Positions 8,905 to 30,933 of a stretch of DNA of 34,203 nucleotides are shown piece after piece. The stretch is from a virus. Where the stretch lies: positions 1 through 34,203 of IMG/VR virus record IMGVR_UViG_3300009091_000037; one strand, given 5' to 3'. Position 1 is the stretch's first letter. Every line of letters begins with the position of its first letter. The position numbers and the translations under genes were made by a program. The notes beneath the pieces are model-generated. The model did no database searches, was not told the origin of the DNA, and was given only the letters and a program-made list of their open reading frames with translations.

Positions 8905-11900
8905 ATGACAATACCTTTACAAGTAAGAAATGGAACCGTTCGATATTATCCACAAAACAGCGATGAGAAATGGGGAACTGAAGCGTCTGCAATGATGCAA
9001 GATGTAGTACTTGGAATCAACCAAAGTGCACAAACTGCACATTTACAAAATTATGATATTGTTATTGGAACGGACTCTGATGTAGCGGACGGAAATGCTA
9101 CACATAGCTCATGGTCCACCGCAATTGCAGCGGCAATCGATGGAAACACTATTTTTGTAAGAAAATGTACTCTTTCTTTAGCTTCTCAATTAGTGATTAA
9201 TAAAAAACTAAAAATCGTTGGGACTAAACAAGCTTCAGTCATTCAAGATTCCGTTACTATAACAAATGGGTCCATGATAAAAATAACTGTTAATGACGTT
9301 GAATTTGTGGATGTAGAAATTCAACAAAGTCTCGGAACGCCTGATTATGCTATCGAATTAAGTAATGTAAATAGAATTTGTTTAAATATTCCGGTATCAG
9401 GGACATTCGCAATCTCATCTATTTATAGAAATGGAATGACGATTAATGGAATGATAGGACAAATTCTCTCATCAACTACACTTGACAACTATCTTGGAAC
9501 TAATGCATATTCCAAGTATGTATATTTGAATGATGTATTAACATCAACGTATCATACTATTTTAAATTCCAATTCATCAACTGCGTTGACTGCCAATCGG
9601 AATTTAACAATTGACGTAAAGAATGCTGATCGCACATTGTCTTTATCTGGAAATCTTACTATTGGAAACTCTTTATCTACGGGAAGTCACACTATTACAT
9701 TGAACACGACAGGTACAACTAGCATAACGCTTCCAACTGCCGGAACGTTGTCTACTTTAGATGGTGTCGAAACGTTAACGTCAAAGACATTGACTTCTCC
9801 AACCATAACGAATCCGACGCTTTCTGGTGGGACAGTAGTTTCTACAGTTGGCGTATATGATACAAATGCTTCACATTCTCTGAATTTAAAATGGAATGAA
9901 GACGACACCATTAATCGAGTTTTAAATTTAAAAGTCAACGGATCGGATAAGACTATTGATTTATCGGGAAACTTAACCCTTGCAAATAGCTTTACAACAA
10001 GTGGAAATTTCGCTTTGACATTGACTCAAACGGCGGCTACAAACGTCACGCTTCCTACTACCGGAACGCTGTCTACTCTAGATGGGTCTGAAACGCTGAC
10101 AAACAAAACATTAACGTCTCCAATTTTAAATACAGCAACGATTAATAATTCTACAATCTCAATCCCTTCACTTTCAGGAGGGACGGTTATTTCTACGGTG
10201 AGCGTATATGATACAAATGCTTCACATTCTCTGAATTTAAAATGGAATGAAGACGATACCATTAATCGAGTTCTGAATTTCAAAGTTAACGGATCGGATA
10301 AGACTATTGATCTAGCCGGTGACTTAACTTTATCCGGTGCATTTGCGTTGACATTGACCCAAACAGCGGCAACCAATGTCACACTTCCAACTACCGGAAC
10401 GTTGACCACTTTGGCCGGTAGCGAAATATTGACAAATAAAACATTAACTGCACCTACAATAACAAACGCGACTTTATCGGTGACAAATACAAGCGGAGCC
10501 GGTGTTCTTTCGATCAAAAGAAATGAAGCCAGTGCGGTTGATTATACATTGACATACAAAGTAAACGGAGCTTCAAGGACGATTGATCTTGGCGGTGATT
10601 TAAAAACAACAACCCAATCAATCACATTGAATGCAAATGCCGCCGGATCTATTTTGACCTTGCCTGATTCGGGGACGTTGGCAACCATTGGAAATTCTGA
10701 AACGTTTACAAATAAAACGTTGACTGCTCCTACGATTAACAAAGCCTATATTACAATTCCAGATATTGACTCTTCTAATGCGCTATTGATAAAATGGAAT
10801 GAAGGAGCCGCTTTAGATCGAACCTTAAACCTGGCCCTTAATGGAGTGGACCGATCTATCACATTAACAGGGGATTTGAGTGTATCTGGAAACGCAACAA
10901 TTAACCAAGATTTATCAACGACCTCTGCCACAGCTCAACTTGCCACATTAACATGTTCAACAAGTTTAGTATCTGCGTTAATAACCAAAGCATCAGCGGA
11001 CTTAAAGGTGACAACAACCACAAGTGGGGACGTGGAACTAAATCCGGTATCTACTATTTCCAGAATAATGGGCGATACCGCAAACAATTCAGGGACAAAG
11101 CGTGTCTTGTTTGGATCGGATGGGGATGGAACGGACTCTGATAACAGCGCTGGCATTCAGTCTGACACGTCTGGAAATATTCAAGTAAAATATAGAGGTG
11201 GAGTATGGTCAAACATAGCCAGTGCGGCTGGTTTTGCTACAACAACCTTGAACAATCTTGGAACTACAGCGATTAACGCAGCTTTAAATTACGCCGACAC
11301 TAATTTAGGCTTAGTCAATATTCCAGTTGGAACTATTATTCCTTGGATTGGCGGTTATTTCGGAAATGGAAGTAATGGAAGTTATACCCGAGTGCTCGGA
11401 ACGGCAAACACAATTGCCGCCGTTAATACGCTTCAAAACCCAAACGGATGGTATGTATGCGATGGGACAGAATTAAATTTAGCATCCTCTCCAATTTTTA
11501 ATGGAGCCACTCGATTTTTGCCCAATCTTTCAGACAGCCGTTTTTTACTGGGCTATACATCATGCGGAACGCAAGGCGGTGCCAATTCTTTAACGACAGG
11601 AAACGCAAGTGTAAATACAACAACAATGACAGCTGGAATTTCAATTAGCAATCATACCGTAACGAATAATGCTGTAACATCAGGTGCAGGGACTGCTCAT
11701 TCTCACGTGTTAACCCCAGGCACTGCTTATGCCCAAATTGGATTGATTGACAATGGAACGATCTGGGTGAAGAACTATTCTGTGACTGCCTATTCAACAA
11801 CAGGTTATTTGTCAGGGACATATACAGCGGATTCTGGTCCAACTAGTATTGGTTCTGGGGTTGGGGGAAGTACAAATACCGAGTCATCACACACTCATGG

Positions 11901-12033
11901 GGTTACGTCAAATGTTGCTGTGTCAAATCATTCGTTTTCAAATGCAACCTATACTGTAGATGCCCATACTCATTCAATCACAAATAGTTTGCCGCAATAT
12001 TTAACCGTTTTTTATTTGATGAAGGTGAAATAA
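8905..12033 (+). CDS. long tail fibre with collar-like, His-rich receptor tip
   Basis: A 1042-residue fibre. The N-terminal part (about 1-200) includes a pectate-like start (IAAAIDGNTIFVRKC). The shaft (about 215-660) is built of repeated blocks of the type GTLSTLDGSETLTNKTL and DDTINRVLNLKVNGSDKTIDL, common in phage fibres. The C-terminus (from about 810: PVGTIIPWIGG, WYVCDGTEL, LPNLSDSRFLLG) is a tail-collar/needle head with His-x-His motifs near residues 931, 995 and 1020 (AHSHV, SHTHG, AHTHS), which in T4 gp37-like tips bind iron. It ends SLPQYLTVFYLMKVK, as collar domains do. Expected to bind the host receptor. Confidence 0.85.
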   Translation: MTIPLQVRNGTVRYYPQNSDEKWGTEASAMMQDVVLGINQSAQTAHLQNYDIVIGTDSDVADGNATHSSWSTAIAAAIDGNTIFVRKCTLSLASQLVINKKLKIVGTKQASVIQDSVTITNGSMIKITVNDVEFVDVEIQQSLGTPDYAIELSNVNRICLNIPVSGTFAISSIYRNGMTINGMIGQILSSTTLDNYLGTNAYSKYVYLNDVLTSTYHTILNSNSSTALTANRNLTIDVKNADRTLSLSGNLTIGNSLSTGSHTITLNTTGTTSITLPTAGTLSTLDGVETLTSKTLTSPTITNPTLSGGTVVSTVGVYDTNASHSLNLKWNEDDTINRVLNLKVNGSDKTIDLSGNLTLANSFTTSGNFALTLTQTAATNVTLPTTGTLSTLDGSETLTNKTLTSPILNTATINNSTISIPSLSGGTVISTVSVYDTNASHSLNLKWNEDDTINRVLNFKVNGSDKTIDLAGDLTLSGAFALTLTQTAATNVTLPTTGTLTTLAGSEILTNKTLTAPTITNATLSVTNTSGAGVLSIKRNEASAVDYTLTYKVNGASRTIDLGGDLKTTTQSITLNANAAGSILTLPDSGTLATIGNSETFTNKTLTAPTINKAYITIPDIDSSNALLIKWNEGAALDRTLNLALNGVDRSITLTGDLSVSGNATINQDLSTTSATAQLATLTCSTSLVSALITKASADLKVTTTTSGDVELNPVSTISRIMGDTANNSGTKRVLFGSDGDGTDSDNSAGIQSDTSGNIQVKYRGGVWSNIASAAGFATTTLNNLGTTAINAALNYADTNLGLVNIPVGTIIPWIGGYFGNGSNGSYTRVLGTANTIAAVNTLQNPNGWYVCDGTELNLASSPIFNGATRFLPNLSDSRFLLGYTSCGTQGGANSLTTGNASVNTTTMTAGISISNHTVTNNAVTSGAGTAHSHVLTPGTAYAQIGLIDNGTIWVKNYSVTAYSTTGYLSGTYTADSGPTSIGSGVGGSTNTESSHTHGVTSNVAVSNHSFSNATYTVDAHTHSITNSLPQYLTVFYLMKVK
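9851..10319 (+). repeat. internal duplication in the fibre shaft
   Basis: About 118 bp at 9851-9968 is repeated at 10202-10319 with few differences, an offset of 351 bp (117 codons, in frame). It encodes the VYDTNASHSLNLKWNEDDTI block. The near identity suggests recent duplication or gene conversion, a common way for fibre length to change. Confidence 0.8.
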
Positions 12034-28001: not shown

Positions 28002-28154
28002 TTAAGGATTTATAACTTTATCTACTTCGACCATACATCCATTCTCAGAATGATATAAAATTGCTTCTGCTAATTCATCCCATTGTTCTTCTGTTGCGTT
28101 TCCACTTTTAAATAATTGAATAACTTTATCTTTATATTCATTGATCGTCATCAT
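28002..28154 (-). CDS. small helical acidic protein
   Basis: A 50-residue ORF missed by common length cut-offs. Its ATG (28154) overlaps the TGA of the secreted-protein gene (ATGA), with AGGGGA about 6 nt upstream. The sequence is protein-like and helical (EYKDKVIQLFKSGNATEEQWDELAE). No family recognised. It is one of a run of coupled genes ahead of the lysis genes. Confidence 0.6.
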   Translation of the reverse strand: MMTINEYKDKVIQLFKSGNATEEQWDELAEAILYHSENGCMVEVDKVINP

Positions 28155-28849
28155 TTCCATTCCCCTGGCATGGGTTGATTCAATAACGACATCGTATCCG
28201 ACAAGTGCATTCCTTTACAAAAATAAGTCTCTCTCATCATATATGATTCGGTTATAACACAAAATCGAGACGAAGGAGAACTAAACGAAACATCGTCCAT
28301 TGAATTATTCCAATTTGTTACATATACCTTTACATGGTGTGCATAACTTCCAACGATAATATTAGTTTGTTCTAAATAAATATCGGTCATTCTTTCATAT
28401 TGAGGATCGACCAGAATAATTCTAGCTTCAAAAAAAGAATTCATATATTCTGGTCGATCCATTGGATAGATTGACCCACGACATATAAATGAATTTACCC
28501 CATTAAATTCAGACTGTGGAATATAAAAATCAAATATTTTATTTGCTTCAATAATTTGAATAGAATTTCCAAAATTTGCCTTTATTGTGCCTGTACATTG
28601 GAATTGGAATTTATACTGATAATTTTTTTGAATTCTGAAGTTGAGATTTTGAGTTGGATTATGCCTTTTTGTACAAGCTCCAATATAGTTATCGATATCA
28701 ATACACGCCCTGAGTGGAACGCCTATCCATACGTCAACCTCTGGGCTATTAGCTATACCAGAATTAATCTTCGCTCTATCATCCTCATGGGATATTTCTG
28801 CATGAGCACATGAGTAAAAAATAAAAAATAAAAATAAAATTTTATTCAT
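28151..28849 (-). CDS. secreted Cys-containing protein, unrecognised
   Basis: A 232-residue protein with a clear signal peptide (KILFLFFIFYSCAHA, cut expected after A17; a Cys at 14 makes a lipobox unlikely). The mature part is strand-rich with several cysteines that could pair as disulfides, consistent with a periplasmic or outer-surface location. Its ATG overlaps the remnant tail of the repeat module upstream (LKGHL stop, ATGA), and the module tail supplies its Shine-Dalgarno (GAAAGGA). It may be a periplasmic lysis or exclusion factor; unproven. Confidence 0.65.
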   Translation of the reverse strand: MNKILFLFFIFYSCAHAEISHEDDRAKINSGIANSPEVDVWIGVPLRACIDIDNYIGACTKRHNPTQNLNFRIQKNYQYKFQFQCTGTIKANFGNSIQIIEANKIFDFYIPQSEFNGVNSFICRGSIYPMDRPEYMNSFFEARIILVDPQYERMTDIYLEQTNIIVGSYAHHVKVYVTNWNNSMDDVSFSSPSSRFCVITESYMMRETYFCKGMHLSDTMSLLNQPMPGEWK

Positions 28850-28876
28850 AAGTGTCCTTTCAGTCTATCCACTATT

Positions 28877-28954
28877 CTACCCCTTATCTATTCCATTAGG
28901 ATAACCCTCTAAGCGATCCCTTAAGCTATACCCACAAGGTAATCCTGTGTTCAT
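28877..28954 (-). CDS. repeat peptide module 1 (frameshifted)
   Basis: A 25-codon ORF beginning MNTGLPCGYS and LRDR, then running into another frame and TAG. The normal module frame resumes farther on (RIVDRLKGHL stop at 28846), with AGA and ATA codons in place of CGC and TTA, so this copy has decayed by an indel and point changes. The tail still provides the start signal of the secreted-protein gene, which may be why it is kept. Confidence 0.5.
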   Translation of the reverse strand: MNTGLPCGYSLRDRLEGYPNGIDKG

Positions 28955-29070
28955 AGCTTTCCTTTCAGTCGATCCCTTAAGCGAACCCCTAAGCGATCCC
29001 ATAAGCGAGCCCTTAAGCGATCCCTTAAGCGATCCCTTAAGCTACACCCCAAAGGTAATCCTGTGTTCAT
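28951..29070 (-). CDS. repeat peptide module 2 (6 units)
   Basis: A 39-residue peptide: leader MNTGLPLGCS, six L-x-x-R units with middle pairs RD, RD, RA, WD, GV, RD, and the tail LKGKL. It starts 10 nt after the stop of the QGDV-like gene, whose TGA is the first base triplet of the module leader. Its own TGA overlaps the next start (ATGA). It is strongly basic and hydrophobic with a four-residue period, so it could be membrane-active or nucleic-acid-binding; neither is shown. Confidence 0.6.
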   Translation of the reverse strand: MNTGLPLGCSLRDRLRDRLRARLWDRLGVRLRDRLKGKL

Positions 29071-29080
29071 AGCTGTCCTT

Positions 29081-29386
29081 TCAGTCGACAACTGGCGCAA
29101 CAAGTCCACTAAATATTCCTTTTTCTAAAATCTTTCCGAATTGCCATATTCCATTTTCAAAATAAAGAGTTTCATGAGTATCATGATTAACGCATGCATT
29201 CTCTTTGGCCACAAAAAACCGTTCATTCTCAGTCACGTAAATATCCCCACCCTCTAAAACGTGAGGATGAGTTGACTCTTGAATTGTTTTGCATTCATGC
29301 TTAATTGCGTTATCTGGAAGTTTATCTATTTTTATAAAAACAATATCTCCTTGTTGTCCAGACTCTTTTACTAATTTTTTTTCCAT
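29081..29386 (-). CDS. QGDV-like small protein
   Basis: A 101-residue protein with QQGDIVFIKIDKLPDNA near residues 11-27, resembling a widespread small family that begins RQGDVLLxPVxxLP. His residues follow (STHPHVLEGG, NHDTHETL), as in that family. I recall such genes near DUF6745-type genes, as seen here at 30022-30933, but this needs checking. AAGGA precedes the ATG. It lies between repeat modules 3 and 2, and its last codon joins the module 2 leader. Confidence 0.55.
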   Translation of the reverse strand: MEKKLVKESGQQGDIVFIKIDKLPDNAIKHECKTIQESTHPHVLEGGDIYVTENERFFVAKENACVNHDTHETLYFENGIWQFGKILEKGIFSGLVAPVVD

Positions 29387-29401
29387 TTTTCACATTCCTT
29401 T

Positions 29402-29533
29402 TTATAGAGTTATTTTAATCAAACGAAACAGTATATGATCAAATAATTTATCATATAATCGAAACCACAATGGATCTCGTAATAAAAAAAAGCGATCCCC
29501 TAAGCTATACCCCAAAGGCAATCCTGTATTCAT
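29402..29533 (-). CDS. repeat peptide module 3 (diverged body)
   Basis: A 43-residue ORF with the usual leader (MNTGLPLGYS) and one standard unit (LGDR). After a run of eight T the DNA loses the 12-nt repeat, but a hydrophobic residue still falls about every fourth position (LWFR, LYDK, LFDH, LFRL). The standard LKGQ tail is missing and the ORF ends in TAA. The frame may be an old repeat body or a chance extension past a deletion. Confidence 0.45.
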   Translation of the reverse strand: MNTGLPLGYSLGDRFFLLRDPLWFRLYDKLFDHILFRLIKITL

Positions 29534-29697
29534 ACTTGTCCTTTCAGTCGATCAAATAAGCGATCCCATAAGCGATCCAATAAGCGAGCCCCTAAGCGAT
29601 CCCTTAAGCGATCCCTTAAGCGAACCCATAAGCGACCCACTAAGCGATCCCCTAAGCGATCAAATAGTCTATACCCACAAGGTAATCCTGTGTTCAT
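29530..29697 (-). CDS. repeat peptide module 4 (10 units)
   Basis: A 55-residue peptide: leader MNTGLPCGYR, ten units with middle pairs FD, GD, VG, WV, RD, RD, GA, LD, WD, FD, and the tail LKGQV. Start and stop both form ATGA overlaps with modules 5 and 3. The inner order VG, xV, RD, xD, GA is shared with module 5, so the two descend from one array and have since changed mainly at the middle residues. Confidence 0.65.
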   Translation of the reverse strand: MNTGLPCGYRLFDRLGDRLVGRLWVRLRDRLRDRLGARLLDRLWDRLFDRLKGQV

Positions 29698-29897
29698 AGC
29701 TGTCCTTTCAGTCGATCAAATAAGCGATCCCCTAAGCGAACCCATAAGCGAGCCCCTAAGCGATCCATTAAGCGATCCCTTAAGCGAACCCTTAAGCGAC
29801 CCACTAAGCGATCCCATAAGCGAACCAATAAGCGATCCCATAAGCGAAACCTTAAGCGATCCCTTAAGCTACACCCCAAAGGTAATCCTGTATTCAT
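29694..29897 (-). CDS. repeat peptide module 5 (13 units)
   Basis: A 67-residue peptide, the longest: leader MNTGLPLGCS, thirteen units with middle pairs RD, RF, WD, LV, WD, VG, RV, RD, MD, GA, WV, GD, FD, and the tail LKGQL. It has about 18 basic and 7 acidic residues. AAGGA lies 5 nt before the ATG. A longer frame starting at 29942 runs across the leader in the same phase but has no ribosome-binding site. Its TGA overlaps the ATG of module 4. Confidence 0.65.
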   Translation of the reverse strand: MNTGLPLGCSLRDRLRFRLWDRLLVRLWDRLVGRLRVRLRDRLMDRLGARLWVRLGDRLFDRLKGQL

Positions 29898-29926
29898 ACT
29901 TGTCCTTTCAGTCGATCCCCTAAGAG
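29894..29926 (-). pseudogene. remnant of a further repeat module
   Basis: Upstream of module 5 the module frame is still readable as L-L-G-D-R followed by LKGQV and TGA, with the stop overlapping the module 5 start. No leader or start codon remains; an in-frame TAA lies 27 nt farther upstream. This is the 3' end of a module whose 5' part was deleted. Confidence 0.65.
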
Positions 29927-30021
29927 CTTTCTTTCCGAGCAAATTAAATGAACTTATAATTTATTTAGAAAATTATCTTTAATCCTATGGAAGCCATTAT
30001 TCATCGTTTTATTCTTTTGTT

Positions 30022-30933
30022 TTATGTTATTATTTCCGGTTCTTTATATGTTATATTTTTAAATGGAAATCTAAACACTTTTGCCTCTTCAATTGTTTTA
30101 CAATGATCCCCAACTCCTTCATAGTGGTATCCACCGGTACTAGGATTATACATTTTCAAAACTTTTGCATGTTTATCTTTTTCAATCTCAAGTTCATATA
30201 ATTCATAATCTTCCCATTTTTTAGAACTTTTAAAACTATCTAATAATTTACTTTTCAATTCTTTCATCATTCTTTCAGCACCTATTTTTTCCAACCCAAC
30301 ACGACGTACATCAATGTTTGTTTCAGACAAAACCTTTTTTACGTCTAATTTTTCAGAAGGAGTTTTGATTATATAGTCAGGGACTGAAATTCCATCAATA
30401 AATCCATACCCTGTTCCATCTTTATATTTTATTGAAAAATCATTCGGATTATGAAGTTGAAATAACTCTAAATCATTATTTTTAATTTCACACAGAACTG
30501 GGGATTGGATAACAAAACAAATCTTTTCACAAGGAAGTATTGCCGTAAAATGTCTACATATTTTTTCAAATCTATCAAGATCTTCAATTAATATTTTTTC
30601 AATACCTTTGGTTTCTTTTAAAATATTAATACCGGCCCAATAAAAAGCCACCCACCATGTCCATAAATTTAGAAAAATGATTTCTTTGATAAGTTCCTTT
30701 TTATCTATTTTTGTAGACTCATGAACCATATTAATGGCCTGTTCTGGGCTATCAACATAGTGAATAGTTACTTCATGTTGTATGTCTAAAAATTTTCTAT
30801 ATAAAAAATGGACCGATTCTTTTACAAACGCGTCATTTATTTCTGAGTTTGTTCTTAATCCATTTTTTAACATTACCGTAACATAATCATCAACTTCTTT
30901 TTCTTGTTCTTTTGTTAACTCTAAATTACTCAT
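30022..30933 (-). CDS. DUF6745-like protein
   Basis: A 303-residue protein that by pattern matches DUF6745: a Trp-rich helix (about 92-106, LNLWTWWVAFYWAGI), then FQLHNPNDFSIKYKDGTGYG (about 158-177, the family's HNxxGPAIxYRDGWG), DGISVPDYI, the RRVGLEKIGAERM segment, and a C-terminal GGYHYEGV / KTIEEAKVFRF corresponding to the family's 'lRVPP..kTa.eA..wtF'. Function of the family is unknown. Start ATG 30933 overlaps the upstream gene by 8 nt. The repeat modules follow. Confidence 0.65.
   Translation of the reverse strand: MSNLELTKEQEKEVDDYVTVMLKNGLRTNSEINDAFVKESVHFLYRKFLDIQHEVTIHYVDSPEQAINMVHESTKIDKKELIKEIIFLNLWTWWVAFYWAGINILKETKGIEKILIEDLDRFEKICRHFTAILPCEKICFVIQSPVLCEIKNNDLELFQLHNPNDFSIKYKDGTGYGFIDGISVPDYIIKTPSEKLDVKKVLSETNIDVRRVGLEKIGAERMMKELKSKLLDSFKSSKKWEDYELYELEIEKDKHAKVLKMYNPSTGGYHYEGVGDHCKTIEEAKVFRFPFKNITYKEPEIIT

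Follow-up and report, generated by a model that had tools for sequence, protein, structure and literature searches.

A probable DUF6745 repeat block standing outside the protein, split into overlapping mini-ORFs, in a viral contig

The repeat block inside DUF6745 proteins

PF20530 (DUF6745) is a domain of unknown function, and our literature search found the term DUF6745 in no paper. In this study we encountered the domain in phages, actinobacteria, cyanobacteria, and Deinococcus. DUF6745 proteins from phages and plasmids can contain in-frame 12-nt repeats that read [W/R/G]-x-[S/R/Q]-[V/L] and lie between the N- and C-terminal parts. For example, in L032, L033 (phage cta39025), and L080, a long tetrapeptide block lies between the N-terminal part and a conserved W-x-x-F-Y part. 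The units in these three proteins are of the form [mostly W/R/G/S]-[D/A/S/N/E/K]-S-[V/L], with a few R-V units in L080. The embedded block is of the -QV type in a Nocardia plasmid (L160, Nocardia farcinica plasmid 3) and of the -QL type in a Mycobacterium prophage (L165, gp38 of Mycobacterium phage prophiGD102-1). In L160, the QV block seems to switch frame within the array, which is either a sequencing error or a real switch, and the annotated DUF6745 gene starts late. The Pfam model omits the block: matches to PF20530 begin after it, at residue 201 in L032 and residue 221 in L033. The repeat region is also unreliable in structure models of DUF6745 (pLDDT below 50).

A different kind of repeat can take this position. 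In L031 and in a Deinococcus plasmid (L167), the C-terminal part of DUF6745 is fused to leucine-rich-like repeats in place of the tetrapeptide block. A search of 200 genomes of the phylum of L012 gave a single DUF6745 hit, and it was fused to leucine-rich-like repeats.

In most of these loci, DUF6745 adjoins a small gene of the 'QGD...H.EH' type, whose product has a predicted all-beta fold (pLDDT 85). We built an HMM of this partner from four sequences (the one at 29386-29081 in the DNA described below and its counterparts in L044, L056, and L069). It matched genes beside DUF6745 in L032, L033, Microcystis phage LMM01, Streptomyces, Deinococcus, and the Mycobacterium prophage, and it matched weakly in L159. 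All told, partner homologues lie beside DUF6745 in L032, L033, L034, L044, L056, L069, L159, L161, L165, L166, and L167. In two Streptomyces plasmids (L161 and L166) and in the Deinococcus plasmid, the pair adjoins genes of the STM4011-STM4015 families, which include two radical SAM families, a hydrolase family, and others; we found no paper on a cassette of this composition. In L159, a GGCTAC-type six-base repeat (GYGYGSG) fills the gap between the partner gene and DUF6745.

As to what DUF6745 does biochemically, PDB, PADLOC, and NCBIfam gave no informative match, and the NCBIfam hits were at chance level. Structure models of DUF6745 and of the partner matched no PDB fold at E <= 0.001. PADLOC did not match either protein from our locus or from L044, and in L032 and L020 it gave weak hits that coincide with the repeats.

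A chain of small repeat ORFs beside a DUF6745 gene without repeats

The window, by which we mean the whole stretch of DNA that we analysed, is an IMG/VR virus record of 34,203 bases. It carries Erf-like, portal, terminase, and endolysin genes. The portal protein has one match, at 25%, to a phage of Silvanigrella aquatica, which hints at the host. That phage record (partly N) shows no comparable array. Searching viral contigs with the terminase, the capsid, or the DUF6745 protein of the window as bait returned nothing.

The DUF6745 homologue of the window (30022..30933, minus strand, 303 aa) has no repeat block. It scores just under the PF20530 cut-off of 27 (E 5.5e-6, 26.3 bits) and aligns end to end with homologues that score above it. 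The arrays of the window are separate ORFs, and they begin just downstream of this gene. The original prediction described five small ORFs and a remnant with a common leader and tail, and we confirmed all of them on the minus strand between 29942 and 28877. Its account of their build and reading frame was also correct. From the DUF6745 gene to the gene at 28849-28151, the order on this strand is remnant, M1, M2, M3, the partner gene at 29386-29081, M4, and M5.

The modules begin with the leader MNTGLP-x-G. In the clean modules M1, M2, and M4, the body consists of CGCTTAnnGnnT units (exactly 13, 10, and 6 copies, as predicted) and is followed by a K-G-x-L/V tail. M1 (29694..29897) is 67 aa long and reads MNTGLPLGCSL, 13 RL units, and KGQL; M2 (29530..29697, 55 aa) has the leader, 10 units, and KGQV; and M4 (28951..29070, 39 aa), which follows the partner gene, has the leader, 6 units, and KGKL. 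The other modules are less regular. M3 (29402..29533, 43 aa) has the leader and a single nearly clean unit, and then its body diverges. M5 (28877..28954) is decayed, with the leader, a single unit, and an early stop; its KGHL tail is still present, though in a different frame, where it overlaps with the start of the gene at 28849-28151. The headless remnant (29895..29937) ends in LGDRLKGQV-stop and is coupled to M1.

As had been predicted, every module is preceded by AAGGA, which lies 5-6 nt ahead of each leader ATG. Four features go beyond that prediction. First, M1 and M2, M2 and M3, and M4 and M5 are linked by 4-nt stop/start overlaps (ATGA) behind the AAGGA. Second, the array is interrupted by the all-beta partner gene (29081..29386, minus strand, 101 aa), whose TGA stop lies inside the junction ahead of M4. 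Third, the last module junction supplies the start of the gene at 28151..28849 (minus strand); its start codon overlaps that junction. This gene encodes a 232-aa protein with a signal-peptide-like N-terminus, for which we found no family match, only chance-level hits.

The fourth is a plus-strand copy, P0 (1281..1383), near the other end of the contig from the main chain. It is a single module, MNTGIPLGYRLRNRLWDRLWSCLKGQV, with an ORF at 1296-1379, and lies at the 3' end of the gene at 983-1285, downstream of Erf-like and GGACT-family genes. Direct repeats of 23 bp, identical to each other, flank P0 at 1281-1303 and 1361-1383.

Tandem Repeats Finder scores the 12-nt arrays at 251 and 118, and it finds a higher-order duplication of 164 nt (91%, score 554) that corresponds to M2 and M1. 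For the leader pattern, we counted 6 occurrences in the window versus 0.41 expected, and none of 100 shuffles reached 6. We considered a stem across the leader (CAC/GTG) and rejected it: it has no support from covariation, and a comparison of the copies shows the pair broken in 2 of 6.

The frame of the window units reads [R/W/G..]-[D/V/A/G..]-R-L, so M1, M2, and M4 contain the word [WRG]-x-[SRQ]-[VL] in 12-nt tandem units. The commonest codons in these modules are AGG, GGG, or TGG in slot 1 and GAT in slot 2, followed by CGC and TTA. The clean units have CGC TTA in slots 3-4 without exception and vary at the first and second codon positions of slots 1-2. The clean arrays do not have the excess of silent changes that is usual in coding sequence, and when we tested simply for a shortage of silent changes, no single array gave a significant result. 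So the codon pattern of the clean units is no positive sign of translation. Neither is it an argument against translation, because a similar pattern is seen in embedded arrays, whose frame is shared with a conserved domain: in L033, AGC CTC is fixed and slot 1 varies among GGG, GAG, TGG, and AGG.

M3 departs from this. Its DNA has diverged and includes silent changes (CGA, CGT, TTG), yet it still reads RDPL WFRL YDKL FDHI LFRL, so that x-x-[R/K/H/P]-[L/I] recurs every 4 residues. A mostly basic residue followed by L or I every 4 residues arose in 5 of 200,000 permutations for a 20-aa stretch, which we picked after inspection, and in 2,879 of 200,000 for the whole body; some 12-nt periodicity is still present in the DNA of the stretch, however (9 of 20,000 shuffles). 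We also considered the plus strand, where the frame [LI]S[DE]P fits the substitutions, but this frame is broken at every junction and has no evident start signals.

Repeat blocks inside and outside DUF6745

The embedded blocks of L032, L033, L080, and L165 resemble the window modules in several ways. Both are built of 12-nt tandem units in the same frame, slot 1 is often W, R, or G, slot 2 is mostly small or acidic, and slots 3-4 are nearly fixed. The all-beta partner lies beside DUF6745 in L032, L033, and L165, as it does in the window (30933-30022 and 29386-29081). The window differs in having R-L in slots 3-4 and a wider set of residues in slots 1-2. Above all, the embedded block is in frame inside the protein, while the block of the window is outside and is split into several overlapping mini-ORFs. 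The original prediction knew of no described family built in this way. This holds only in part: the PF20530 model omits the block, and the 82-aa ORF containing M1 has no Pfam match, but repeats of the same kind and frame are embedded in PF20530 proteins. In short, we read the window modules as an outside-standing, split, coupled variant of the DUF6745 repeat block. This is not simple gene fission, as the N-terminal part stays with DUF6745: in the window, L044, L056, L069, and L135, the N-terminal and W-x-x-F-Y parts of DUF6745 have no insert between them. Our searches found no earlier description of this relation between the inside and outside forms.

Other examples came from scanning viral contigs for less strict 12-nt patterns, which gave first L017 (the same gene as L032) and L020, and then 120 contigs. 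Most of the 120 had RVRVRG six-mer sequence and were set aside. Arrays that mix W/R/G with D/A/E were present in five (L044, L056, L069, L080, and L135). Although the scan was blind to DUF6745, all 5 of these contigs contain a DUF6745 gene in the stretches that we examined, versus 0 of the 115 others. We drew up the W/R/G grouping after viewing the data, but with a mechanical cut (at least 25% D/E), DUF6745 is present in 4 of 10 contigs versus 1 of 110 (Fisher P = 1.2e-4).

In four of these viral contigs, as in the window, a free repeat ORF lies near a DUF6745 without repeats, which bears out the expectation, set in advance, that comparable modules would be found in other phages. The units of stand-alone viral arrays are mostly [WRG][DAE]RV. 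The free ORF is directly ahead of DUF6745 in L044, L056, and L069. In L044, it has its own AGGAGG and GTG, is in the expected frame, and ends 9 nt ahead of DUF6745; like the window modules, it is equipped in the tetrapeptide frame with a start, a ribosome-binding site, and a stop of its own. In L135, the free ORF follows an Erf-like gene, downstream of DUF6745, and two modules with a common leader stand at two gene ends, as in the window. In embedded arrays, the protein sets the tetrapeptide frame, and it is in this frame that the free ORFs are read in the window, L044, and L135. There are differences as well: L044, L056, and L069 each have a single array of R-V units and no visible tandem of mini-ORFs, and we found the MNTGLP leader and KGQL tail in the window alone.

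So the block is inside DUF6745 at five loci (L032, L033, L080, L160, and L165) and outside, near a DUF6745 without repeats, at five others (the window, L044, L056, L069, and L135). No locus in the DNA that we examined has both. Because several loci were found through their repeats, these counts do not give the natural frequency of the two forms. The contigs of L056 and L069 break off inside the array, whose start is out of view, which suggests that short-read assembly halts at such arrays and that their counts are too low.

Databases may already list free-standing repeat proteins of this type, with no function assigned to them. The free arrays found in L044 and L069 hit three PHROG families of unknown function (36210, 5189, and 22557, the last only weakly), and the array embedded in the L033 protein hits 22557 as well. 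None of the three matches M1 or M4, and M2 hits only other families at E of 0.6 or worse. More generally, we found no informative family or PDB match for the repeat peptides. Pentapeptide-repeat proteins (A(D/N)LXX, period 5) can be ruled out, as the period of the modules is 4 residues or 12 nt. Scans of viral and genome collections for the leader and junction pattern gave nothing or chance hits, and a pattern scan of 398 genomes from the phylum of L012 gave none. There were no matches from blastn of the array or tblastn of M1 against phages and plasmids, or from tblastn of the L044 array against phages, but the low-complexity filter of BLAST may hide repeats.

The tetrapeptide repeat is not exclusive to DUF6745. 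A protein in L020 contains (S-V-[RWG]-[DA])n. These SV-type repeats are like the window units and are embedded, but the flanking protein is different, and we found no DUF6745 on the contig.

What the separate modules may do

We think it rather likely that the modules are short translated genes that supply in trans the tetrapeptide block present in cis in other DUF6745 proteins. We favor this explanation because one form takes the place of the other and because the free form retains its own translation signals. It also fits with the frame and word that are common to the embedded, window, and other stand-alone repeats, with the presence of DUF6745 in the mixed-array contigs, and with the company of the partner gene. 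The start signals in L044, the likeness of the two modules in L135, and the residue pattern kept by M3 point the same way. On the other hand, the decayed M5 and the remnant, the fixed CGC TTA without a silent excess, and L020 count against it.

If so, then the modules, DUF6745, the all-beta partner, and the gene at 28849-28151 would be carried on one polycistronic minus-strand message. A ribosome that finishes one module could re-initiate at the overlapping ATGA behind AAGGA, and a single transcript would yield several repeat peptides of different length. Most likely, judging from the sequence, the modules are translated and act with DUF6745. The peptides would work with that protein and stand in for the block that it lacks, as a repeat part that is detachable and present in multiple copies.

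The main rival is that the array is a minisatellite at the level of DNA. The 12-nt unit would grow by slippage and recombination, a cassette of junction, leader, and array would spread to gene ends, and translation would be incidental. Changes of 12 nt do not shift the frame, and DUF6745 loci would happen to tolerate the cassette. The invariant CGCTTA hexamer and the mostly amino-acid-changing variation of the clean units are what one would expect from this, as are the decayed copies and the copy of the cassette that lies far away, between direct repeats of 23 bp. The RNA of M1 folds better than shuffled sequences (z = -2.6), but shuffling also removes the periodicity; Rfam has no match up to E of 1 in 28800-30050. 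The similar block in the unrelated protein of L020 is what keeps this idea alive. Nevertheless, it does not explain why the arrays keep company with DUF6745, why the inside and outside forms exclude each other, why independent stand-alone ORFs use the same frame, or why the modules retain starts preceded by ribosome-binding sites. We consider it unlikely.

The mini-ORFs might instead be spacers that move ribosomes along the operon, so that coupling into the genes at 29386-29081 and 28849-28151 would matter and the peptide would not. The ATGA overlaps, both between modules and at the junction into the gene at 28849, suit this idea, and so does the TGA of the partner gene in the junction ahead of M4. 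However, M3 stops before the partner gene without any overlap, the L044 array has a strong site of its own and a 9-nt gap to DUF6745, and a relay has no need for a 12-nt repeat body, all of which makes this improbable. Finally, the original prediction suggested membrane-active or RNA/DNA-binding peptides, and independent arginine-rich or amphipathic peptides unrelated to DUF6745 seem very improbable: M1, M2, and M4 are rich in Arg and Leu, but their relatives are of the SV, SL, QV, QL, or RV types, so neither charge nor helix character is conserved, no informative family or PDB match was found, and we see no direct support for such a role.

To return to modules that act in trans with DUF6745, extra modules could arise by duplication at the shared junction sequence, and the phage's Erf-like protein might copy them by re-annealing. 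Copying by annealing recombination would fit with the junctions that the modules share, with the direct repeats of 23 bp, and with the Erf-like gene that is a neighbor in both the window and L135. A repeat module lies near a gene for an Erf-like annealing protein in both (282-1405 in the window and reverse-complement 4277-5196 in L135); the call in L135 was made by eye and not from a family search.

More speculatively, and we would not expect this to be right, the two forms could be one system in which the variable residues (W/R/G; D/A/E or others) and the copy number make up a readable, easily re-dealt specificity element. The array would then swap between a built-in domain and separate multi-copy peptides that are duplicated around the genome.

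Whatever the role of the repeat, the window and four other contigs indicate that the DUF6745 repeat block can exist as separate genes, and in the window we see a phage multiplying this part as a chain of overlapping mini-genes. What was an anonymous low-complexity stretch thereby becomes a unit that one could delete, extend, or supply in trans, and the function of DUF6745 and its partner is opened to direct tests. The window also contains a longer repeat: 158 nt at 89%, with 351-nt spacing, at 9820-10328, inside a long gene (8905-12033) that looks like a modular structural protein.
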